From contig JAUSMA010000033.1 of assembly GCA_030645475.1 (NCBI GenBank), positions 1 to 64,000 on the forward strand: 64,000 bases of DNA. The letters run 5' to 3'. This DNA comes from Nitrospirota bacterium (GTDB lineage: Bacteria > Nitrospirota > Nitrospiria > Nitrospirales > Nitrospiraceae). Under the pieces are notes generated by a model. That model did not search any database. It saw only the letters and a list, made by a program, of their open reading frames with translations, and had not been told where the DNA came from. Position 1 is the first letter of the stretch. Each line of letters starts with the position of its first letter. Of the stretch, positions 43,819 to 59,522 are shown piece by piece. The translations under genes and the position numbers were made by a program.

Positions 43819-45749
<1,931 letters not shown>

Positions 45750-45753
<4 letters not shown>

Positions 45754-48158
45754 ACGTCGTTCTGTTCTCAGAGGTCACGATCGAGCGGGTAATCGGCGGC
45801 GCCGAGCGAGTCCTTCGGCAGCAGTCGTTGGGCCTTGCCAAGCTGGGCCATCACGTGCGCGTCATCGTGCGGGCTCCCTGCGAGTCCGCCGAGGCGACAT
45901 GCTCGATCGGCAACGTGATTGAACGGCGCTATCCCGTGACCAGAACCAGCGAGCCGGCCTTTGTTTGGTCTTCGGTACAGAACTCCCTGCGCGCCTTCGA
46001 TGTGATGGGACAGACCGGTCCTATCGATGTCGGGGTCATCCATCAATCATTGGCTGGTCTCGGTCCGATCTTGTCTCGCTATCGCACGGTCGGTCGCTGG
46101 GTCTACGTCTGTCATTCGCTGGCGCATGAGGAATATCTCACGAGGGCGGAGCGGGCACCTTCGACATTGGAGCGGGTCAGGCGGAAGCTGAGCGCGCGCG
46201 CCAGACGGTGGATTGAACGCATGGTGATGCGCCGCTGTCATCATGTGGTGGTCTTGAGCGAATTCATGAAACGGCAAGTCATGGCTGCTCATGGCATTGC
46301 ATCGAAGGACATTACGGTGGTCCCTGGTGCAGCCGATCTTGCCATGTTCTATCCGGCCGAGGATCGGGGCGAGGTCAGGCGAGAGCTGAAAATTTCCGAG
46401 AGCCGCAGGGTGTTGTTCACGGTGCGGAATCTGGTCCCTCGCATGGGGTTGGAACACCTGATTGAAGCCATAACGTTTCTCGGGGAGGAGCGGAGGAATC
46501 TTCTCCTCCTGATCGGCGGGGAAGGCCCGCTCCGCCAGCGATTGGAGGAGCTGATTCGCAGCAAGGGACTACAAGACTTCGTGCAATTGATCGGGTTCGT
46601 GCCGGAGGAACAGTTGGCGAAGTATTACCAGGCCTCCGACTTGGTCGTGATGCCGACGCTGCAGCTCGAAGGGTTCGGTCTGGTCACGGTTGAAGCGCTG
46701 GCCTGCGGCACCCCGGTGATGGGGACGCCAGTTGGCGCGATTCCAGAAGTATTGAGAACGGTCGATCCGCTGCTGGTGACGGAAGGGACAGACGGAGGGT
46801 CTCTCGCAAAGACCTTACGATTATGGCTGACGCGCTTCCGTGAGCAGCCTGGTGAGCGGCAGCGTCTTTCGAACAAAGGCCGGGAGGTCGTGGAGCGGCG
46901 TTTCAACTGGGACGCCCATACGGCTCATTTGGATCGTCTCTTTGCCGTTGGTTCGAAAGACGGACAGATGACCGGGGCGAGGAAGGTGATCCATGTGATC
47001 ACGCGCCTCGACTATGGTGGGTCGGCGCAGAACACGATGTTGACGGCCCTCGGTCATGATCCTGCGCAGTTCGAACCGCTAGTGGTGGCTGGCTATCCGG
47101 GATCGTGGGATGCGCAAGGTGGACAGGCTGCGACGGAGGAGAATTGCCGGCGGCTCGATCGGGCCGGAGTTCGTTGGCTGCTGCTGCCTTCCCTGACGCG
47201 AGCCGTTCATCCGTTAAAAGATCTTCAGACCTTGTGGCAATTGATTGGCCTCTTCCGGCGAGAGCAGCCGGCATTGGTTCATACCCATACGTCGAAGGCC
47301 GGCGTATTGGGACGGATGGCAGCCTGGTTGGCGAGGGTGCCCGTCATCGTCCATACGCCGCATGGCCATGTGTTCTACGGCCATTTCGGTCCCTTCCGGT
47401 CATGGCTGTTTCTTCAGATCGAACGAGGGTTGAGCGTGATCACAGACCGTCTGATCGCATTGACTGACGCGGAGCGGCAGGACCACCTCGATCGTACCGT
47501 CGGCAGGGCAGACCGATTTGTTGTTGTGCCGAGCGGGATCGATCGTGAGAAGTTCGGACGAGCGAGGGCCCAAGGGAAACAACAGCCGGACTGGTTCGGT
47601 TGCCCCGCAGATGCGCTGGTCGTCGGATCGGTCGGGTGGCTCACCGATATTAAGGGCCATGAACATCTGATCGAAGCTGTTGCCCTGTTGAAGCAGAATG
47701 TTCCCTCTCTCCATCTCGTGATCGTCGGGAGTGGGGATCGGCGGGAAGCATTGTTACAGCAAGCGGAATCGATCGGTCTCCGCGATGCCGTGCATCTCCT
47801 CGGTCATAGGGACGATGTCGATATCTGCCTCGCGGGGATGGACCTGTTTGTGTTGCCTTCACTCAATGAAGGGATGGGGCGTGCGCTGATTGAAGCCATG
47901 GCATCTGGACTTCCGGTGATTGCTTCCCGCGTCGGCGGTATTCCGGCCGTGATCGATCACGAACGAACCGGCCTGCTAGTCTCGCCCGGCGATGCCGGTG
48001 CATTGGCAGAGGCGTTACGCCGGTTGCTCGATCGACCGGAGTGGGCCAGGCAGTTGGGCGTCGCAGCGAGCCGCAGCGTGGATAGCCGATATGGATCGCT
48101 CTCTATGGTCCATGCCATCGAATCCATCTTTGCCGAAGCGCTCACGATACATGGGTAA
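45750..48158 (+). CDS. Tandem GT4-GT4 glycosyltransferase fusion
   Basis: 802 aa with two complete GT-B transferases. Module 1 (1 to about 400): VIGGAERVLRQQSLGLAKLGH, hinge ITVVPGAADLAMFYP, and LVVMPTLQLEGFGLVTVEALACGTPVMG. Module 2 (about 407-802): VIHVITRLDYGGSAQNTML, HTHTSKAGVLGRMAAWLARVPVIVHTPHGHVFYGHFG, hinge FVVVPSGIDREKF, and FVLPSLNEGMGRALIEAMASGLPVIASRVGGIP. Module 2 resembles EpsD-type transferases. M407 could be the start of a formerly separate gene; no Shine-Dalgarno precedes it. Two successive sugar additions by one polypeptide are likely. Confidence 0.9.
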
Positions 48159-48171
48159 GCGAGAGAGACAG

Positions 48172-49728
48172 ATGAGAGCGGTCGGGCGGCTGATGTTGCC
48201 ATTGATGGCGATCGTACTGTGCTGCATGGTCGGGCATGTCGAGGCGTCGGATGATCGCCAGCAACTATTGGCCACGTTCCATGTCCATAGTACCGCCAGT
48301 ACCGGCGATATGACGGTTGAAGCCTTGGCTGCAAGGGCGGAACAGCTCGGCCTGGATGTACTGATACTGACCGATAATTTCTCGCTGCGGTATGAGTATG
48401 GACTCTGGCCCTTGCGGGGTATCCTGAAACAGCGAGTGAGTGTTCTCTCCGTGCTGGAGTATGGGATTGAACGGTATCTCGATGAGATCGCGGCTTCGCA
48501 GCGCCGTCATCCGAAACTCATCATTGTGCCTGGTGTTGAAGTCGCACCCTATTACTATTGGACTGGTTCTCTCGCAGCAGGCTCGTTGACGATGCACAAT
48601 GCGCAACGCAACCTCCTGGTGCTCGGCCTGAACAAGCCGGAGGATTACCGGTCCCTTCCTGCCAGTGGGAACCCTGGATCCTACACCTTCGATTGGCGAG
48701 GGGCGGTGAATGGTGCGCCGATCTTGTTGGTCGTTCCCGCCGTCTGGCTCTGGAGACCCTTCCGGCCTGCGGCTGACCGGCGTTCCCCACGGCGAATAGT
48801 TTCTGTGGTTTTGATCGTCCTGGCCGTGGCTCTGGTGGCCAATGCCTGGCCGTTGAGTCAGCCGGCGTTTAGTTCCTATGACGCAGGGCTGGGGTATCGT
48901 CCCTATCAGGCTCTCATCGATGATGTGAAGGACAAGGGCGGACTGTCGTTTTGGTCGATGACGGAAGCGCGAGACTTTCATGAATATGGATTCGGGCCAC
49001 TGGGAAGGGTTACCGTCAAGACGGAGGCTCACCCGGAATCGTTGCTGCAGACGACCGGGTATGCCGGTTTCGGCGGGCTCTATCAGGATGAGCGAACCAT
49101 CAACAAGCCTGGTGAACTCTGGGATCGGTTGCTTCAATTGCCGGCAGATGAGCAGCGGCCGGTTCCGGTGTTGATCGGGGAGTTGGCGTTTCATGGATTG
49201 AAGGATGCCGGGAAGGATCTGAATCGTGTAGTCACGGTGCTTTTGGTCAAAGAACGAACGATGCCCGCGGTGCTGGAGGCGCTTGGGTCAGGTCGCGCGT
49301 ACGCAGTGGGTGAGGGAGACCACCATGTCCAGCTTCGGTTGGATGAGTTTCGAGTGCTCTGCCAGGGCGGAACCAGATCGGCATCGATGGGCGATCGGCT
49401 GGATCCAGTCGGCGCTCGCAATCTGATGGTTCGCCTTTCGATTTCTGCGGCCGATCATGGGCGCCATCCGGTGAAGGTGCGGCTGATTCGTTCCGGGCAG
49501 GTCGTGGCGCAATTGGCAGGCGAGACGCCGTTTCTCGTCGATTGGCCAGACAACTCCATGCCGACAAGAGAGCGGATGACCTATCGTGTAGAAATCACCG
49601 GCAGCGGAGAATTGTTGAGTAACCCGATCTTTGTGGGACCGATTCATGAACCGAACGCTGTCAGCTCTCAGCCGTCAGCGTTCAGCTCAAACATGATTTC
49701 ACCTCCGAAGCTGAAACCTGAAGGCTGA
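48172..49728 (+). CDS. PHP-domain protein with internal membrane segment
   Basis: 518 aa from ATG 48172 (GAGAGAGA upstream; an ATG at 48151 is possible). Signal-like N-terminus (LMLPLMAIVLCCMVGHVEA), then a PHP-type metal-hydrolase start FHVHSTASTGDMTVEALAARAEQLGLDVLILTDN and IIVPGVEVAPYYYW. Two hydrophobic stretches (ILLVVPAVWLW, VVLIVLAVALVANAW) fall at about 183-225, followed by a domain in which FWSMTEA and RVTVKTEAHPESL are seen. PHP proteins include phosphatases such as CpsB, but those are cytoplasmic; this one seems exported. The last ~20 residues are encoded by a palindromic repeat. Confidence 0.75.
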   Translation: MRAVGRLMLPLMAIVLCCMVGHVEASDDRQQLLATFHVHSTASTGDMTVEALAARAEQLGLDVLILTDNFSLRYEYGLWPLRGILKQRVSVLSVLEYGIERYLDEIAASQRRHPKLIIVPGVEVAPYYYWTGSLAAGSLTMHNAQRNLLVLGLNKPEDYRSLPASGNPGSYTFDWRGAVNGAPILLVVPAVWLWRPFRPAADRRSPRRIVSVVLIVLAVALVANAWPLSQPAFSSYDAGLGYRPYQALIDDVKDKGGLSFWSMTEARDFHEYGFGPLGRVTVKTEAHPESLLQTTGYAGFGGLYQDERTINKPGELWDRLLQLPADEQRPVPVLIGELAFHGLKDAGKDLNRVVTVLLVKERTMPAVLEALGSGRAYAVGEGDHHVQLRLDEFRVLCQGGTRSASMGDRLDPVGARNLMVRLSISAADHGRHPVKVRLIRSGQVVAQLAGETPFLVDWPDNSMPTRERMTYRVEITGSGELLSNPIFVGPIHEPNAVSSQPSAFSSNMISPPKLKPEG

Positions 49729-49740
49729 TGGCTGAAAGCT
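49663..49740. repeat. Palindromic repeat spanning the PHP/WbqC gene junction
   Basis: Left arm AGCTCTCAGCCGTCAGC (49663-49679) pairs with right arm GCTGATGGCTGAAAGCT (49724-49740), 15 of 17 positions complementary. A nested pair TTCAGCT / AGCTGAA lies inside (49681-49687, 49709-49715). The right half is a tandem of GCTGA-like units. The sequence includes the PHP stop and the next ATG, and so supplies codons for both genes. It looks like a mobile intergenic repeat that settled between two genes. Confidence 0.7.
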
Positions 49741-49745
49741 CGCTC

Positions 49746-50459
49746 ATGCGCGTCACCATTCATCAACCGCAGTTCCTGCCCTGGCTGGGGTATCTGGACA
49801 AGATCGATCAGGCGGACCTATTTATCGCGTTAGACACGGTGCAGTTCAAAAAGAATGAATGGCAGAATCGTAATCGGATCAGAACGGCGGACGGTTGCCA
49901 ATGGATTACGGTGCCGGTGATCCATCGCTTCGGTCAATTGGTGAAGGATGTGCGAATCAATCAGACGGTGAACTGGCGGGCTCAACATCTGCGGGCGCTC
50001 GAGATCCATTATGCGAAGGCTCCGTTTCGTGACCGCTATCTGCCGGAGTTGCGCAGCCTCTATGAGGCCCCATGGGAACGGTTGCATGACGTGAATCTCG
50101 CGGTCATCCGCTGGTTGCTTGAGGCCTTCGGGATTACGACGCCCGTTCGGTGCGCGTCGGAGTGGGAGGCGTGCGAAGAGCCCACCGATCGATTGATCGA
50201 TCTGTGCCGCGCCGTTGGCGCATCGGGCTATCTGTCGGGCCCCGGCGGGGATGTGTATCTGGACGTGCCTCGGTTTGAATCGTCCGGGCTGACGTTAGAA
50301 ATGCAACGGTTCCAGCATCCGATGTATCGGCAAGTCTACGAACCGTTTATGCCGGCGATGTCGGCGATCGATCTATTGTGTTGTTGCGGGCCGGAGGCGC
50401 TGACGCGATTGCGTGAAGCGCGGGTGGGGCAGAATGTAAATGCGGTGACAAAGCTGTAA
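49746..50459 (+). CDS. WbqC-family protein
   Basis: 237 aa from ATG 49746 (MRVTIHQPQFLPWLGYLDKIDQADLFIALDTVQFKKNEWQNRNRI), the WbqC signature over the first 45 residues. An ATG at 49728 lies in the palindromic repeat and is less likely. WbqC proteins occur in O-antigen and glycan loci and are suspected to act on amino sugars, perhaps in acyl-group addition; the reaction is not firmly known. Followed by a MITE-like repeat. Confidence 0.92.
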   Translation: MRVTIHQPQFLPWLGYLDKIDQADLFIALDTVQFKKNEWQNRNRIRTADGCQWITVPVIHRFGQLVKDVRINQTVNWRAQHLRALEIHYAKAPFRDRYLPELRSLYEAPWERLHDVNLAVIRWLLEAFGITTPVRCASEWEACEEPTDRLIDLCRAVGASGYLSGPGGDVYLDVPRFESSGLTLEMQRFQHPMYRQVYEPFMPAMSAIDLLCCCGPEALTRLREARVGQNVNAVTKL

Positions 50460-50539
50460 AAGTCGGCGGAGAAAGTGTTGTGGCACGATGTACATCGAAC
50501 AATGGAATGGTTGCGAGTGGTGAGATCGGTATAGTCATG

Positions 50540-50665
50540 CAGGATGCTCAAACAGGCTGTCTAGCAAGGCCGCAGCCGACGAACGCACCGGAGGCGTAGC
50601 CTCAGGGCTACGTTGAGGATGCGTTCGAGGCGAGAACGAAGCTGGCGGACTGTTTCAGCATCCTG
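50540..50665. repeat. 126-bp palindromic MITE-like element
   Basis: Terminal inverted repeats of about 24 bp: CAGGATGCTCAAACAGGC at the left, whose counterpart on the right is GACTGTTTCAGCATCCTG. A second inner palindrome (50581-50626) has GAACGCA / TGCGTTC ends and CGTAGCC / GGCTACG near its 4-base tip. No coding capacity. It resembles dispersed repeats I recall from Nitrospira and other genomes, but copy number cannot be tested here; I noticed no second copy in the window. It ends 19 bp before the PIG-L start. Confidence 0.75.
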
Positions 50666-50683
50666 GTAATCGAGGAGGATGGG

Positions 50684-51328
50684 ATGGCAACTGAGCGTAG
50701 AGTGCCGATGCGGATTCTGGCCATTGGCGCGCATCCGGACGATATCGAGGCTGGGTGCGGGGGGACGTTGCTCAAGTATGCGCAAAAGGGACATCGTATC
50801 TTTCTCCTCGTGATGACCGCCGGCGACAAGGGTGGATCAAGCAGCATACGCAAACGCGAGCAGGCACGATCGGCGAAACAATTGGGCGTCGAAAAGATTT
50901 TTTGGGGCGGATACAAGGACACGGCAGTGCCGATGGGGCTGGACGTGATTCAGAAGATCGAGCAGGTGGTGGAGGACGTGCAGCCGCATTTTATTTTCTC
51001 GCATTATCACGACGATACCCATCAGGACCATCGGCATCTGGCGATGAGTACGATCACCGCGACCCGCTATACCAAGAACGTGCTGTTCTACGAAGGGCCG
51101 ACCACCCAGAATTTCTCTCCGACCGTCTTTGTCGATATCGATCAGGTGGTCGAGGAAAAGGTGAAATCGATCGAGGCTCATGGCTCGCAGGTGAAAAAGA
51201 CCAACATCGAAGGCCTGAGTATCGTGGATGTGATTCGAGCCGGGGCGCATTTCCGTGGCATTCAGGGTCGGGTGAAAAACGCAGAAGGCTTTGTTCCGCT
51301 GCGATTGTTTATTAATATCGGCGTATGA
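50684..51328 (+). CDS. PIG-L/LmbE-family deacetylase
   Basis: 214 aa. Zinc motif AHPDDIE at residues 16-22 and the second ligand group HYHDDTHQDHRH at about 107-118, with YEGPTTQNFSPTVFVDI in between-family positions. PIG-L enzymes remove N-acetyl groups from GlcNAc-type sugars. GGAGGA precedes the ATG. The gene sits between wbqC and a DegT aminotransferase, which suggests deacetylation of an amino sugar before re-acylation by WbqC or a partner. Overlaps the next gene by 4 bp. Confidence 0.92.
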   Translation: MATERRVPMRILAIGAHPDDIEAGCGGTLLKYAQKGHRIFLLVMTAGDKGGSSSIRKREQARSAKQLGVEKIFWGGYKDTAVPMGLDVIQKIEQVVEDVQPHFIFSHYHDDTHQDHRHLAMSTITATRYTKNVLFYEGPTTQNFSPTVFVDIDQVVEEKVKSIEAHGSQVKKTNIEGLSIVDVIRAGAHFRGIQGRVKNAEGFVPLRLFINIGV

Positions 51329-52404
51329 CCACTGTGGCGACTATCATTCCCCATTCACGGCCTGCCATCGACGAAGAAGACCTGCGCGCAACGGCTGAGG
51401 TGCTGCGTTCAGGGCAGATTGCCCAAGGGCCTTGGGTCGAGCGATTCGAGCGCGACATGGCATCGTTCGTAGGGGTGCGGGGTGGGGTGGCGGTCAGTTC
51501 CGGGACTGCGGCGCTTGAGTTGGCGCTGCGGGCGCTTGATGTCGGAGCCGGCGACGAAGTCATCATGCCGAGTTATGTTTGCCAGGCGCCATGGCTTGCG
51601 ACGCAACGGGTTGGGGCCCAGGCCCGGCTCGTCGATATCGATCTGGATACGTTCAATATCGATCCGCTCGCCGCCTGCCAGGCGGTGACCAAGAAGACTC
51701 GCGCGATCATCGTTCCGCATCTGTTCGGCCTGCCGGCCGATCTGACCGCACTTGAGCAGATCGGGATTCCGTTGATTGAAGATTGTGCGCAGACGCTGGG
51801 GGGCACGGAACAGGGTCGGCCTGTCGGGACTGTCGGGCGGCTGACGGTCTGCTCCTTCTACGCAACGAAGCTGCTGTGCGCCGGAGAAGGTGGGATGGTG
51901 CTGTCGAATGTGAAGGGGGATCTCGAACGAGTCCGGTCGCTGCGCGAATATGACGGCGCACCGACATTGAACCCCTCCTCTTTTAATGTGAAACTGACCG
52001 ACATGCAAGCTGCGCTTGGGCTGTCCCAGTTGGGACGGTTCTCGGCCTTTCATGAACGGCGCCAAATCCTCGCGGCAACCTATCGTATTGCACTCTCCTC
52101 CAAGGCTGCCGTCTGTCCGACTGCGCCTCCTGGCAGGACACACGGATATTATCGCTATGTGGTCAGACTTCCGCATCTCCGGACCAATCCCGATGGCCTC
52201 ATGTGCCTGATCAGCACATTGGAGCAGCAGGGGATTCAATGCCGTAAGCCGGTCTTTCGACCGCTCCACCGCTATCTGGATCAGTTCGGTTTTCCCAACA
52301 GCGACGAAGCAGATCGAACGGCCTTGTCGATTCCACTCTATCCCGATCTCACAGACGACGAGACCAGGCAGATTTTACAATCGTTGGACGAGGTTCTTTC
52401 GTGA
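51325..52404 (+). CDS. DegT/DnrJ/EryC1/StrS-family sugar aminotransferase
   Basis: 359 aa PLP enzyme. N-terminal PHSRPAIDEEDLRATAEVLRSGQIAQGPWVERFE; GGVAVSSGTAALELAL; PHLFGLPADL; IEDCAQTLGG. The PLP lysine is K182 in CSFYATKLLCAGEGGM. It would transfer an amino group from glutamate to a keto-sugar nucleotide. Coupled to PIG-L upstream (ATGA) and to the WecA-like gene downstream (GTGA). Confidence 0.94.
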   Translation: MTTVATIIPHSRPAIDEEDLRATAEVLRSGQIAQGPWVERFERDMASFVGVRGGVAVSSGTAALELALRALDVGAGDEVIMPSYVCQAPWLATQRVGAQARLVDIDLDTFNIDPLAACQAVTKKTRAIIVPHLFGLPADLTALEQIGIPLIEDCAQTLGGTEQGRPVGTVGRLTVCSFYATKLLCAGEGGMVLSNVKGDLERVRSLREYDGAPTLNPSSFNVKLTDMQAALGLSQLGRFSAFHERRQILAATYRIALSSKAAVCPTAPPGRTHGYYRYVVRLPHLRTNPDGLMCLISTLEQQGIQCRKPVFRPLHRYLDQFGFPNSDEADRTALSIPLYPDLTDDETRQILQSLDEVLS

Positions 52405-53570
52405 AAGCCATCGGCGTTGAGGCGTCGCCGTTCGCAGTCCGTAGTAGTTGGCGTTGGCTGACGCCTGCTGTGCTGGGGGCCTTGCTGGGCATCGTGGCCT
52501 TGGCCATTCCAACAGTACGTCAGCTCTTCGTCTTCGAAGGGCTTCGGTGGCTCTATATCCTGCTCTTTGCGTTTCTCGGCGCCGGGGCGTTGACGCCGCT
52601 CATGGTGCATCTCAGTCATCAGTGGGGGCTGGTCGATCAGCCTTCCGACCGGAAGATCCATGTGTACCCGACTCCCAGACTCGGTGGAGTGGCCGTCTAT
52701 CTGGGCTTTCTGGGTTCGGTGCTGCTGAATTCGATTTTGCCGGACTGGATGATCGCGACGTTGGTCGCCGGATCGTTGTTATTGATCGTGGGTGTGGTCG
52801 ACGACGTCTGGGAATTACCTGCCTCGTCAAAATTGGTCGCCCAGGTGATCGCTGCAGGAATCGTCATCTCGACGGGGAAGGTTCTGACCCTGTTTCCGGT
52901 CGGTCCTATCGGGGATCTGGCGAACGTGCTGCTCACGTTGCTCTGGATCGTCGGGATCACGAACGCCTTCAATTTTTTCGACGGCATGGATGGTTTGGCT
53001 ACGGGGCTGGCAATTCTCATTGCCGGATTCATGGGGGCGGTGGCATTTGAGACGAACCAGCCGGGAGTGGGCTGGCTGGCCATCGCCATCATCGGAGCCG
53101 GGGTCGGGTTTCTGCCCTATAATTTTCGGGGGCGTAAGCCTGCCGTGATTTTCCTGGGAGACGGAGGGGCAACCTTCCTCGGGTTCACGTTGGCCTGTTT
53201 GGCCGTCAAGGGGAATTGGGCGGATCATAGTCCCATCGTCTCATTCAGCAATCCGCTCCTCATCTTCGGCGTGCTGATCTACGACATGATCCACATCACC
53301 GTGGAGCGGGTGGTGACGGGGAAAGTGCATTCCATCAAAGAATGGCTGGACTACGTGGGGAAAGACCATCTCCACCATCGTCTGGAACGTGCGTTAGGGT
53401 CTCGCCAGGCAAGTGTCGCGATGATCTGTCTCATGACGATTTGCCTCGGGCTGGCGGCGTTGGCGCTCCGTCACGCCGGAACGGCTGAGGCGGTGCTGCT
53501 CCTCATCCAAGCCTGCTTAATTGTGGTTATGATCACGATTCTCGAATGGAGCGGACGCCAGAGATATTAG
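52401..53570 (+). CDS. Undecaprenyl-phosphate sugar-1-phosphate transferase (WecA/TagO-like)
   Basis: 389 aa, about eleven membrane helices, PNPT/MraY superfamily. [22 protein letters not shown]; the catalytic [47 protein letters not shown]; and DHLHHRL, the HxHH loop of the WecA/Rfe group. It attaches the first sugar phosphate, probably GlcNAc-1-P or a HexNAc, to undecaprenyl phosphate: the initiating step for the locus. Start GTG 52401. Last gene of the glycan locus. Confidence 0.93.
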
Positions 53571-55003: not shown

Positions 55004-55080
55004 CGGGGCGTAGCGCAGCTCGGTAGCGCGCCTGCTTTGGGAGCAGGATGTCGCAGGTTCGAATCCTGTCGCCCCGACCA
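55004..55080 (+). tRNA. tRNA-Pro (anticodon TGG)
   Basis: 77 nt. Acceptor CGGGGCG/CGCCCCG, discriminator A, encoded CCA (55078-55080). Anticodon stem CCTGC/GCAGG with loop TTTGGGA, anticodon TGG. T arm GCAGG TTCGAAT CCTGT. Confidence 0.96.
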
Positions 55081-55190
55081 ACCACAGTCTACCCGATCCG
55101 TCGCCGTATCATTGAGGCGACGGGATCAATGCCGCCAGTGGTTCGCACCCATATCTCAGGCTCATAAAACATAGCGGTGTACGTATGACG

Positions 55191-55223
55191 AAGGGGATTG
55201 TCCAAGCCAGGGACAATCCCCTT
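55191..55223. terminator. Bidirectional terminator-like hairpin
   Basis: Perfect 13-bp stem AAGGGGATTGTCC / GGACAATCCCCTT (55191-55203, 55211-55223) with a 7-base loop, short T-run on the plus side. It lies between tRNA-Pro and the convergent caspase gene, and can serve both. Confidence 0.7.
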
Positions 55224-55289
55224 TGTCATTGATACCATTCACGCATTTGTTGGTTGGCAGATACGGCGATTTTTTTGTCGTGCCGCAGT

Positions 55290-58200
55290 CTATTTGATCG
55301 CTGCGATGGGGAAATCCATGCCACGAGATTCGGCGACCGGATATTGCCGTTCGGTTTTGAATTTCAGGCTGAGTTCAGGCAGGCGGGCTTCCACAAAGGC
55401 GAGGAGTTCTCGCACCGTGACGATGCCATCTTTCGGGCTTCCGTCGGCTTGTCCTTGGAGCCCTTCGAGCAGGGTATAGGTGAATACGCCATGTCCGAGT
55501 TCTTGAACTTCGCTGGCAAATTGATCTTTTGTGGATGCGGCCACGATATGGACCCCATTGGCCCGCGCCAACTGAGCCAGGGCCTGGCGTTCGTCCACGC
55601 CTCTGGCTGAAAACGCTTGCAGGGCAAATCCCGATTTGCAGGCATCCATGAGCAAGAGCACCTTCTTGGCTCCGATCTGCATCACCAGATCTTTAATCTC
55701 TTGTGACGAGATACCCTTCAGCCGTATTTCTTCCGGCCGTTCCGGATAGACGACCTCGTGTGGAAGGAAGTACCAGTCTGCTCCAACACTTTCACCGTGC
55801 CCGGCAAGATATACGATGACGACGTCTTCCGGAGCCGTGCCTTTCAAGCTCTGGAGCTTCGTGAGTAACTCGGTCTTGGTTGCACCGTTGTTGAATAGCT
55901 CGGTGATTTTGACGGTTCGAAACAGACTGGATGATGATGCAGAGAAAAACTTCAGAATGCCCGCGGCATCAGGTTGGGCGAAATTGAGATTCAACGCAGA
56001 GTTCTGATACTGATTGATACCGACCGCAATGAGATGCAGGACGGCTTGTTTCTGCGGCCCGTGAAAGGTCATTCGCAGCTCGACCGATTTCCCTTCGATC
56101 CTGGCCGTGCTGATGGCCACGGCTCTCAGGCTGTTCTCTCCCTGAACGAGGCGGATATGAAACGGGAGGGTTCGTTGCTTCCGTACAGCGGTATCCGCCG
56201 TCACGGCGACCCCGCGAGTATCGGTTCCGACGAGCTTGTCGTTGTGGTAGAGGCGTATCTCGCCGATCCCTCCTCCTTGATCCTCAGCGGTCACGGTCAC
56301 GTCGATCTCTTCTTGGTTCAACTGGGCATTCAGCGTAGGAGCCGTGATGGAGGCCGTCGGCGGAGAGGTAAATCCGACGGCCAAGTTGACTCGTTCCTGT
56401 TGGCCGAAATATTGGAGCGCGGCCGTATCGGCTTCTGTCGTGCGGAGCACTCGTGCCACGAGTTCCGGGTGGTAGAACTGCTCAAAGAAGTGCGAGGCGT
56501 CGTAGAACTCGGCTTCGCGGTTGCTGCCGCGATTCAGATGCCACCCGATGAGTGCTTCCGCATCTGTCTCGGCGTCGAAGTAGCCCTTGGGGGTCCAGAC
56601 GATCCAACGTTTCCGATCTGTATGGGGGTAGAGCGCCAGTAATTCCTGACCATCCTGGAGGCGAAACCATCGGACCGTGCCGTCTCCTAGTGCGGCGACC
56701 GCCAGGCGGCCGTTTTTTGAAATGGTCACGTTCCAGGCAATGCCGGGAACGGAAATGTGCCACCGTGGGGTCCCGTCACGTGCGAAGAGCCGTAGCTTGG
56801 ATTCCGTGCCGAGCAGAAAGCTGTCCTGGTCCGGTGCGATGGCAAGACTGCGAGAGAGTTCCCCTGGCTGGAGGGGGAGCGGTCGGCCGTTTAGTCGAGG
56901 CGTCGGTGAGTCATGCCAGTCTGTGATCCGGAGATCTTTCTTGTCGTCTCCGAGCAGACCGAACATCGTGAAGGTGGGCTCTCCCCGGTCTGGACCATGC
57001 AATACAAGGCCTGGAGGGGGATCTTGCGTGAAGGATCTGGCAGGGAGCGAAAACAGGGTAAACGATTTGCCGCGGTTGTAGGCAAACTTCACGATTGCGG
57101 CATCTTCCGAGATCATGAAATCTTCACCCATGCCGCGAAAGTCCGGAATAGGACGGCCGAGATATTGAGTGCGAATGCCGGAGCTGTCGATGGCACCCAA
57201 CGCAGGATCGTGCGAGGCGAAGATCACATCCCCATTTTTCAGGGAAAGTAATTGCTCAATGGAGCCTTCTGCCACGGGATAGTCTTGGAACGTTCTGTTT
57301 GCACCGATCGCCCACCGGCGGATGAAGGTCGTGCCGCGTGCGTGCCCGGTCTTGCCACGTTCTTGATAACTCCCTGCCGCATAGAGACTTTGCCCATCGC
57401 CGGACCATGCGACGGATATGAAATACTGATCTTCGTCCACTTTGGACGTGGGTAGGGAGGTCAGCGCGGTGAGGTCCTTCCCCGATACCAGATCCACTCG
57501 TGGATGGTCTACAAACCCCACCGCCAATGTGTTGCCGTCAGGGGAGAAGCTGGCAGAACGAGGGCGGTCGCCGGCTAGCTTTCGTTTGCCGATGAGCATG
57601 AGCGGTGACGTGCTGGTTGCGCCTAACTCGTAGAGACGAAGATGGCCATCATCCGATACGGTGATCAATCGTCCGTCATGGCTGAACTCTGCATAATGGC
57701 TCGCCGCCGCATAGGCGGAGTCCTGATCGACCTGGGTGTAGGTCTTGGTGTCGTAGAGCCGGATACCCTGTTGGCCTCCTAGCGCGATCACGAGCCACCG
57801 ACCGTCCCGTGAGTAGGCTAGATGGTTAATGATGTTGGGAAAGCCCTGCAATCGATTGGTCAGACGCCCTGTTTCCCGATCAAATATCAGAACTTCTCCC
57901 TCCACACCTCCACAAGCAATGGTGAGCCCATTGGGGGATATGGCAACGGCATACAAGGTGCCTTTTATTCCATTGCCGATCGGTGGACGGAGGACGGATT
58001 GAAGTTCAAGTTTTGGCAGCCCCCAGATGCGTACCGTCTTGTCGAGGGAGACAGTCGCTAAGTAGCGGTTTTGTTCGTCAGTGCTGATTCGCAGAATGCT
58101 GCTGGTGTGCCGACCGGCTTCGATACGGAGGAGGGGAGGTGAAGAAGGCGGTGGCCCCGGTTGAGTCGGTGAGGCGGCCCACCCGCTCGGTATAGATTGA

Positions 58201-58292
58201 ACGACTGCACCAGTCTGCAGTAGCAGGCATAACCAAACTGAGGCCGGGAGCCACTGCGTCACAGGATGACCTGCTGAGATGCGGTGGCGCAA
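55290..58292 (-). CDS. Secreted WD40-like/caspase (peptidase C14) protein
   Basis: 1000 aa. N-terminal signal-like helix (about 12-38). Residues about 60-600 are WD40-like beta-propeller repeats (LRISTDEQNRYLATVSLDKTVRIW, VAISPNGLTIACGG, ASFSPDGNTLAVGF). About 650-740 is an immunoglobulin-like stretch (PPTASITAPTLNAQLNQEEI). The C-terminal caspase domain (about 750-1000) has the His-Cys dyad: H832 in VYLAGHGES and C885 in LLLMDACKSG. Caspase-like proteases cut after basic residues or Asp; role here unknown. 12 bp after the partner lipoprotein gene, so likely one operon. Confidence 0.88.
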   Translation of the reverse strand: MRHRISAGHPVTQWLPASVWLCLLLQTGAVVQSIPSGWAASPTQPGPPPSSPPLLRIEAGRHTSSILRISTDEQNRYLATVSLDKTVRIWGLPKLELQSVLRPPIGNGIKGTLYAVAISPNGLTIACGGVEGEVLIFDRETGRLTNRLQGFPNIINHLAYSRDGRWLVIALGGQQGIRLYDTKTYTQVDQDSAYAAASHYAEFSHDGRLITVSDDGHLRLYELGATSTSPLMLIGKRKLAGDRPRSASFSPDGNTLAVGFVDHPRVDLVSGKDLTALTSLPTSKVDEDQYFISVAWSGDGQSLYAAGSYQERGKTGHARGTTFIRRWAIGANRTFQDYPVAEGSIEQLLSLKNGDVIFASHDPALGAIDSSGIRTQYLGRPIPDFRGMGEDFMISEDAAIVKFAYNRGKSFTLFSLPARSFTQDPPPGLVLHGPDRGEPTFTMFGLLGDDKKDLRITDWHDSPTPRLNGRPLPLQPGELSRSLAIAPDQDSFLLGTESKLRLFARDGTPRWHISVPGIAWNVTISKNGRLAVAALGDGTVRWFRLQDGQELLALYPHTDRKRWIVWTPKGYFDAETDAEALIGWHLNRGSNREAEFYDASHFFEQFYHPELVARVLRTTEADTAALQYFGQQERVNLAVGFTSPPTASITAPTLNAQLNQEEIDVTVTAEDQGGGIGEIRLYHNDKLVGTDTRGVAVTADTAVRKQRTLPFHIRLVQGENSLRAVAISTARIEGKSVELRMTFHGPQKQAVLHLIAVGINQYQNSALNLNFAQPDAAGILKFFSASSSSLFRTVKITELFNNGATKTELLTKLQSLKGTAPEDVVIVYLAGHGESVGADWYFLPHEVVYPERPEEIRLKGISSQEIKDLVMQIGAKKVLLLMDACKSGFALQAFSARGVDERQALAQLARANGVHIVAASTKDQFASEVQELGHGVFTYTLLEGLQGQADGSPKDGIVTVRELLAFVEARLPELSLKFKTERQYPVAESRGMDFPIAAIK

Positions 58293-58304
58293 CGACCGAC
58301 AGAC

Positions 58305-58955
58305 TTATTTAATCGAAAACGTGGCTGTGGCTGCAGCGTTTTTGTCATCAATGGCGACGGTGGTTAAGACTTGGTAGTTGCCGGATTTGGCTTCACGGGA
58401 GATGGGATATTCCCAGGTAATGTTCTGCACGCCCTGCTCCAGCTGAATTTCAGCTTTTTGTGTGTCCACAACTGTTCCGTTGTAACGGATCTCACGTGTT
58501 TCCTTGATGGTCGCCTTGCTTTCGTCTGGTCTGAGGATGGTGTACTTGGCATTGATCTTTACGGAGTCCCCCTGTTTGACAACAGAAGGCGATGCCAGTG
58601 CGTCGCTGATCGTCAGAATGTTGCCTTGTTCGGGGCGATACCCAACGGAGGCCGTCGTTTGAGTCCGATCGCGCTCTCGTTTGGCGTAGTAGTTTCCAAT
58701 CAACCCACCGGATACGAGGCCGACCGTCCCCCCGATGATGGCTCCTTTTTTCTTCCCGGCCAGGCCACCAATCGTCGCGCCTGCTGTGCCGCCGGCGAGG
58801 CTGCCGATCAGCGCTTCCTTGTTCTCAAGCATCTTCTCTTTTGTGCTTTCTGTGAGTGCGTCCAGGGTGTCGCATGCCGTGGTCGCGAGCATCAGCAGGC
58901 TGAGGAGGAGGGACACAAGAGCTCGGCAAGGAAACATGGTCGTGATGAACATCAT
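58305..58955 (-). CDS. Glycine-zipper lipoprotein
   Basis: 216 aa. Lipoprotein signal with lipid Cys28 (LMLATTACDT). Residues about 48-85 are a glycine-zipper membrane segment (SLAGGTAGATIGGLAGKKKGAIIGGTVGLVSGG). A C-terminal beta domain (about 105-216) is immunoglobulin-like with YPISREAKSGNYQVLTTVAID. AAAGG precedes the ATG. First gene of a two-gene unit with the caspase protein; the promoter is at 59004-59031. Glycine-zipper proteins can insert into or permeabilise membranes. Confidence 0.8.
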   Translation of the reverse strand: MMFITTMFPCRALVSLLLSLLMLATTACDTLDALTESTKEKMLENKEALIGSLAGGTAGATIGGLAGKKKGAIIGGTVGLVSGGLIGNYYAKRERDRTQTTASVGYRPEQGNILTISDALASPSVVKQGDSVKINAKYTILRPDESKATIKETREIRYNGTVVDTQKAEIQLEQGVQNITWEYPISREAKSGNYQVLTTVAIDDKNAAATATFSIK

Positions 58956-59445
58956 CTACCTTTCCCGGTTAGGTCGGTCGGGATATGCAACGTATCGCGG
59001 TCAAGTATAACATGGGTATGAGTTGGATCAATGATGGAGAGGCGTTCATCTGCGTAAATAATCGCTCGCACCCTGCTTCATTTGATAGGGTAGATCCCGG
59101 ATGCAAGATTAGGCCTTTCTTTGTGAGGCTTCCTTCACCTGCTGGTTTGCCGTGGCAGTCTTGGACGCGGCTATCTCGTCCTCGGTAACGAGTGACGGAG
59201 GGGGTGGCTAGGGTCATTTCCTTTCCGGACAGTTTCTGTGCTAACAGAGCATGTGAAGTCAGTTCTGCCTGGCTGATGCGCAGACATGTGGGAATTTAGA
59301 TTCCAGGCCGGTATAATCTCTCGCGTGATCGGGACTTGACGCAAGCAGCTCAAAAGGTTCACAAATACCTCCAAGAGAACACGCCGGGAACACTAGCCGA
59401 GACCGTTGCTAACTACTCTTCACGTAAGTGATTGATAAATAGTGT
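58956..59445. other. 490-bp gap, promoter region
   Basis: No convincing gene. It holds the promoter of the lipoprotein/caspase pair (59004-59031) and a TATAAT on the plus strand at 59312-59317 without a clear -35. Nothing else recognised. Confidence 0.5.
59004..59031 (-). promoter_or_regulatory. Promoter for the lipoprotein/caspase operon
   Basis: Minus strand TTGATC (59026-59031), 16-base spacer, TATACT (59004-59009), about 50 bp before the lipoprotein start. Good match. Confidence 0.6.

Positions 59446-59522
<77 letters not shown>

Follow-up and report, generated by a model that had tools for sequence, protein, structure and literature searches.

A secreted WD40-metacaspase encoded beside a glycine-zipper lipoprotein between two tRNA genes of a Nitrospirota bacterium

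Discussions of bacterial caspases usually treat them as cytoplasmic proteins. Among bacterial metacaspases, WD40 is the additional domain seen most often, occurring in 10.9% of them, and the Nitrospirae have been noted as metacaspase-rich (PMC3501461). A caspase-like protease encoded beside a lipid-modified or membrane-inserting protein is known from the bacterial gasdermin-protease operons (PMC9612521), and surface-associated glycine-zipper proteins from the Caulobacter Cdz killing system (PMC5380434). Here we analysed a 64,000-nucleotide stretch of DNA (the window) from a Nitrospirota bacterium, for which an original prediction had proposed a secreted caspase-like protease with a large beta-propeller, paired with an upstream glycine-zipper lipoprotein in a layout regarded as wholly new. 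The two were suggested to form a sensor-protease-effector unit at the envelope. The pairing of a secreted metacaspase with a zipper lipoprotein is real, and each of the two proteins is of a known kind; as WD40 so often accompanies the metacaspase domain in bacteria, the claim of a wholly new layout was not supported. No description of a lipoprotein-metacaspase pair was found in the open-licence literature. The features of the locus are listed in Table 1.

Table 1. Features in and around the lipoprotein-metacaspase pair, with positions in the window; residues of the protease are counted from TTG unless noted.
Feature	Position	Strand	Basis or remark
tRNA-Pro(tgg)	55004..55080	+	far boundary of inserted segment
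Stem-loop, 19-nt arms, 95% complementary	55185..55229	.	downstream of protease gene
WD40-metacaspase ORF	55290..58292	-	1000 aa counted from TTG
Metacaspase (Peptidase_C14) domain, residues 751-998	55299..56042	-	Pfam, alignments, AlphaFold2, profile search
Cys885 codon	55638-55640	-	catalytic dyad
His832 codon	55797-55799	-	catalytic dyad
Ig-like Big_7 domain, residues ~645-743	56064..56360	-	Pfam 4.8e-9, AlphaFold2
Beta-propeller region, residues ~53-600, about 12 blades	56493..58136	-	Pfam, AlphaFold2, fold search
N-terminal signal peptide, end ...PSGWAA, without lipobox	58173..58262	-	direct sequence reading
Likely true protease start, GTG	58260-58262	-	990 aa; ortholog DNA comparison
Glycine-zipper lipoprotein, 216 aa	58305..58955	-	lipobox TTAC, Cys28, Asp at +2
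C-terminal Ig-like beta sandwich of lipoprotein, residues 113-216	58308..58619	-	pLDDT mostly above 90
Basic linker of lipoprotein, residues 88-112 (NYYAKRERDRTQ...)	58620..58694	-	92% identical to G009
Glycine zipper of lipoprotein, residues 51-87	58695..58805	-	ten Gly at i+4, KKK mid-zipper
Promoter-like site TTGATC-16-TATACT, TG before second hexamer	59004..59031	-	~50 nt upstream of lipoprotein start
Tyrosine integrase C-terminus remnant, 40 codons	59309..59428	+	75% identity, E 1e-13; parent family PF00589
tRNA-Arg(tct)	59446..59522	+	integration site

The lipoprotein gene lies directly upstream of the protease gene on the same strand, in agreement with the two-gene operon originally proposed. 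The promoter-like region is also recognisable in the genomes G002 and G012, and the stem-loop downstream is, from its sequence, a possible terminator. Comparison of the intergenic DNA among orthologs revealed that the GTG at 58262 is aligned with the ATG of the G009 ortholog and has AGCAGG upstream, which points to this GTG, rather than the TTG, as the most likely start codon. The protease would then consist of 990 residues with the dyad numbered H822/C875, and the intergenic gap would be 42 nt, not 12. A single stop separates the lipoprotein and protease frames in four orthologs. A readthrough fusion of the two proteins was considered and dropped, as the aligned GTG/ATG start with its ribosome-binding-like sequence explains the frames. 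Both the signal peptide of the protease and the lipobox of the lipoprotein, which had been claimed at the outset, can be read in the sequence. The predicted signal peptide suggests that the WD40-metacaspase is secreted to the periplasm or beyond; it is the least constrained part of the protease (dN/dS 0.53-0.70 versus G002 and G012).

The caspase part was then examined. Peptidase_C14 (PF00656) was matched over residues 756-989 with an E-value of 4.7e-14 in Pfam, and the p20-like domain with catalytic His and Cys assigns the protein to the metacaspases/orthocaspases (C14). The intact His-Cys dyad of the original prediction was borne out: H832 and C885 are invariant in the five orthologs and in 28 full-length relatives, and His and Cys are found in every aligned caspase relative. 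A caspase-like fold was supported as well. A profile of the domain matched solved metacaspases and MALT1 in the PDB with E-values down to 2e-16 (metacaspase-4, metacaspase-1, Geobacter GSU0716, MCA2 and MALT1), whereas the domain as a single sequence gave no match there, and the topology predicted by AlphaFold2 exhibits the caspase-like alternation of strands and helices, with C885 ending strand 877-884 and H832 within strand 824-836. NCBIfam NF047832 (caspase, EACC1-associated type) reached 71.2 bits, below its curated cut-off of 140 bits. Relative to the two close orthologs in G002 and G012, the caspase domain has a dN/dS of 0.014-0.020, which shows strong purifying selection on the catalytic part. 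Asp883, two residues ahead of the catalytic Cys, and Asp775 are both conserved; we take these residues to belong to the metacaspase S1 pocket. Their conservation, as in the basic-specific metacaspases that are the nearest solved structures, suggests cleavage after Arg or Lys, and the protein is metacaspase-like and probably not a classical Asp-specific caspase.

The large beta-propeller that had been predicted was likewise recovered, with a WD40 match in Pfam at 1.1e-19. An AlphaFold2 model built on a 28-sequence alignment (mean pLDDT 82.6) displayed ~12 blades, the Ig domain and the caspase-like part. When the full-length model was used in a fold search, the best matches were tandem propellers (2ymu, AIP1 and Apaf-1); only propellers were listed in this search, which thus bears on the propeller part and not on the caspase part. 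In the model, the propeller part resembles two tandem propellers. Its dN/dS is 0.10-0.12 versus G002 and G012. Propeller-bearing relatives of about 600 aa without a caspase domain are present in Magnetococcales (L104, L105, L106).

The upstream protein carries both a lipobox and a glycine zipper, the features of the SlyB/Omp type of lipoprotein. Gly-zipper_Omp (PF13488) was matched in Pfam at 1.4e-8 (35.0 bits, cut-off 25), and the run of ten Gly residues at i+4 (51, 55, 59 ... 87) was equalled in none of 20000 shuffles, so that the zipper register is not due to chance. The YiaD family NF053611, which has a C-terminal OmpA-like domain and a threshold of 175 bits, was matched with only 39.6 bits and only in the N-terminal part. 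In the predicted structure the last 104 residues form a confident Ig-like sandwich and the zipper part is of low confidence; the fold matches of the Ig-like domain are generic and point to no function. No curated family covers this C-terminal domain of about 100 residues, which is common to the Nitrospirota family of these lipoproteins. In the alignment of that family (A4), Cys28 is kept in at least 90% of the members. The lipoprotein of G006 has no visible lipobox, perhaps because of a frameshift or a misplaced start. In E. coli, Asp at +2 leads to retention in the inner membrane; the residue is Asp in the lipoprotein of the present genome (G000) and Gln in that of G009, so that the protein may be in either membrane. 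The dN/dS of the lipoprotein is 0.14-0.16 versus G002 and G012. Between G000 and G009 the linker is 92% identical, the Ig part 69% and the other compared part 79%.

In the comparison of G000 with G009, no part of the lipoprotein is better conserved than the basic linker that joins the zipper to the Ig domain. This brings up a gasdermin-like function, in which the metacaspase would cut the linker (residues 88-112) and the freed zippers would oligomerise and open the membrane, leading to cell death or envelope remodelling. The predicted basic specificity is compatible with such a linker, and a protease and a membrane protein adjacent in one operon recall the bacterial gasdermin operons (PMC9612521). 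However, basic linkers are also present in relatives of the lipoprotein with no caspase nearby, the contrast in linker conservation is small in other pairs, and a search for a cleavage signature confined to paired lipoproteins returned a weak linker signal. There is no similarity to gasdermins in Pfam or among the listed fold matches of the lipoprotein, and no PADLOC defence model fits, the known anti-phage models giving one irrelevant HEAT-repeat match at 0.005. Moreover, the zipper lipoprotein SlyB guards the outer membrane instead of breaking it (PMC13067283). We consider this executioner function rather unlikely, and the zipper as a toxic effector is only one among several readings.

The distribution of the two genes was investigated in 32 genomes of the genus. 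The genomes used in this work are mostly MAGs. The lipoprotein and the orthologous protease occur in the same five genomes, adjacent in all five, and neither is present in the other 27. The chance of this overlap is 5e-6 if the genomes are taken as independent, which they are not. The trees of the two proteins agree for the five, with G006 branching first, G009 next, and then three near-identical members. Relatives of the lipoprotein were found in 34 of 296 sampled genomes of the phylum. In eight of these, all other Nitrospirota (families f22, f28 and f32), the gene of a relative with zipper and Ig domain immediately precedes that of a secreted, WD40-less caspase about 420-460 aa long; in these operons a DUF4384 gene precedes the lipoprotein gene (typed in two operons) and a TPR lipoprotein gene follows the caspase gene (typed in one). 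The caspases without WD40 fall into a single clade with strong support, distinct from the WD40-metacaspases, and the lipoproteins paired with them likewise fall into a single clade, distinct from the remaining lipoproteins, which indicates that the pairing arose, or survived, in two separate lineages. The two pairings are perhaps only two independent events, with a rough p of about 0.004 on assumed gene numbers.

The co-conservation expected by the original prediction was thus upheld within the genus and in the second lipoprotein-caspase pairing, but the association is not obligate. Most relatives of the lipoprotein are away from any caspase gene (five loci unresolved). No such lipoprotein is encoded near at least 20 full-length WD40-metacaspases from other bacteria, and WD40-metacaspases without this lipoprotein as a neighbour occur in Geobacter and many other phyla, indicating that the protease does not generally need the lipoprotein. 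The neighbours in other lineages are DUF4384, FecR-TPR, transglutaminase, and CHASE2 with a cyclase domain. The closest lipoprotein relative outside the genus (L152 5986-7580, G143) is situated ~50 bp behind an M48-peptidase gene, with no adjoining caspase. This distribution bears on a possible guarding or inhibitory role of the lipoprotein, whose Ig-like domain would keep the protease inactive or shield the cell's own membrane proteins until damage releases the protease. In both types of pair the lipoprotein gene is the first, directly ahead of the caspase gene, and its product ends in a rigid Ig/macroglobulin-like sandwich. We nevertheless regard such a role as distinctly unlikely, as most WD40-metacaspases have no lipoprotein and, in the paired clade, the Ig domain has diverged more than zipper and linker.

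The surroundings of the pair indicated a feature missed by the original prediction. The integrase remnant between the pair and tRNA-Arg has 75% identity to integrases that adjoin this tRNA gene elsewhere in the genus. The pair is located between tRNA-Pro and tRNA-Arg in G000, G002 and G012; in G009 these tRNA genes are ~109 bp apart, representing an empty site, and the pair is elsewhere, and in G006 it is on a separate contig. A search for att repeats on either side of the cassette found none. From this arrangement we take the pair for accessory cargo of an integrative element, now decayed, at a tRNA-Arg hotspot. Integrases of ~380 aa lie beside tRNA-Arg(tct) in several genomes, marking an integration hotspot (L198, L200, L206), and a different WD40-caspase occupies this tRNA-Arg/DUF748 junction in a genome of the sister genus (G143, L190 423-6848). 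On contig C50 of G009 (L039, L044), five caspase-domain genes, that of the pair included, are found within ~45 kb, a caspase-rich island. Viral contigs contained no relatives of either protein, a plasmid search gave four matches only, all partial, to caspases of Azospirillum and Pseudoroseomonas, and a PHROGs search matched only families of unknown function. Elsewhere in the window, positions 45693-53570 hold genes for glycosyltransferases, an aminotransferase-like protein and a WecA-like transferase, which probably make up a polysaccharide cluster.

A mobile and accessory cassette is often seen for defence units, as the executioner function would have it. It is also what would be expected if one mobile cassette had captured two envelope genes that simply move together without a joint function; the pair is accessory cargo at a tRNA hotspot, and each gene is also found apart. 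Yet the adjacency persists across differing surroundings and through divergence to 42-53% protein identity, and a second pairing exists with another caspase lineage. We consider mere co-travel unlikely.

Genomes of Nitrospira harbour up to six caspases, several of them exported, among envelope lipoprotein genes. In the present genome, one locus (L188 6262-11909, contig C61) encodes a secreted caspase-TPR protein and, behind it, LPP20, LpoB (1.5e-39), an unknown lipoprotein and a further LPP20; caspases of ~465 aa similar to this protein are present in most genomes of the genus, and the locus is apparently a core envelope caspase operon. In another (L189 4429-8001, contig C60), an ECF-sigma-like gene and an anti-sigma-like gene precede a caspase-DUF4384 gene, the sigma-related calls having been made by eye, and L193 of G143 displays the same gene order. 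In other Nitrospirota (L248, L250, L252), a WD40-metacaspase operon includes FecR-TPR, DUF4384 and CHASE2-cyclase genes, and the Geobacter relatives have FecR or DUF4384 neighbours as well. One of the lipoproteins paired with a WD40-less caspase (L179) ends in a bacterial SH3 domain. The export and lipid signals, the LpoB/LPP20 neighbours of other caspases of the same genome and the SH3 domain on a paired lipoprotein together place the unit in the cell envelope.

Taking these results into account, we tentatively favour, at close to an even call, a cassette of two genes that provides a metacaspase tethered to the membrane in the periplasm, in which the lipoprotein acts as tether or gate in envelope surveillance. 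The WD40-metacaspase would be exported through its signal peptide, and the lipoprotein would be anchored by its lipid and a glycine-zipper hairpin, with the Ig-like domain extending into the periplasm. The lipoprotein may hold, localise or gate the protease at the membrane, and the propellers and Ig domain may bind partner or ligand proteins. Upon envelope disturbance, the protease would cleave proteins after basic residues. The integrative element at tRNA-Arg would have brought the cassette in, and it would have persisted as an accessory trait. We infer that the two proteins touch, as well as the tethering, the trigger, Arg/Lys specificity and the physiological outcome; the sensor-effector action originally suggested is conjectural, and a function in self-destruction, contact or defence is a guess. 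In the boldest form of the latter, a mobile periplasmic death or defence module would sense envelope attack (phage, contact or stress) through the propellers, the metacaspase would cut the linker and the zippers would breach the membrane. We think this very unlikely; if true, a gasdermin-like logic would have evolved separately, outside the cytoplasm. The exported Nitrospira caspases among envelope genes suggest a role outside the cytoplasm, a subject of very little study so far. The zipper lipoprotein offers a concrete candidate for a partner or substrate, and the pairing of its family with two caspase lineages makes the question a testable one of two genes.

Compared with the described systems, the pair shares glycine-zipper proteins with Cdz but differs in its lipobox and protease partner, and neither type I secretion nor immunity genes of the Cdz kind lie beside it, the unit being two genes between tRNA genes. 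It shares the gene arrangement of the bacterial gasdermin operons, whereas here the protease is exported and its neighbour is a lipoprotein with zipper and Ig domain that has no gasdermin similarity. Like the SlyB/YiaD/17-kDa-type lipoproteins, this neighbour has a lipobox and a zipper, with PF13488 above its cut-off and a weak match to the YiaD family, but it carries a C-terminal Ig-like domain in place of an OmpA domain. The protease itself is closest to the WD40 metacaspases/orthocaspases (C14), having the same kinds of domains and an intact His-Cys dyad; full-length relatives of 37-38% identity, also with signal peptides, occur in Verrucomicrobiota, Nitrospirota and Geobacteraceae. What sets the present locus apart from these proteases is the partner lipoprotein encoded upstream and the decayed integrative element in which the pair resides.
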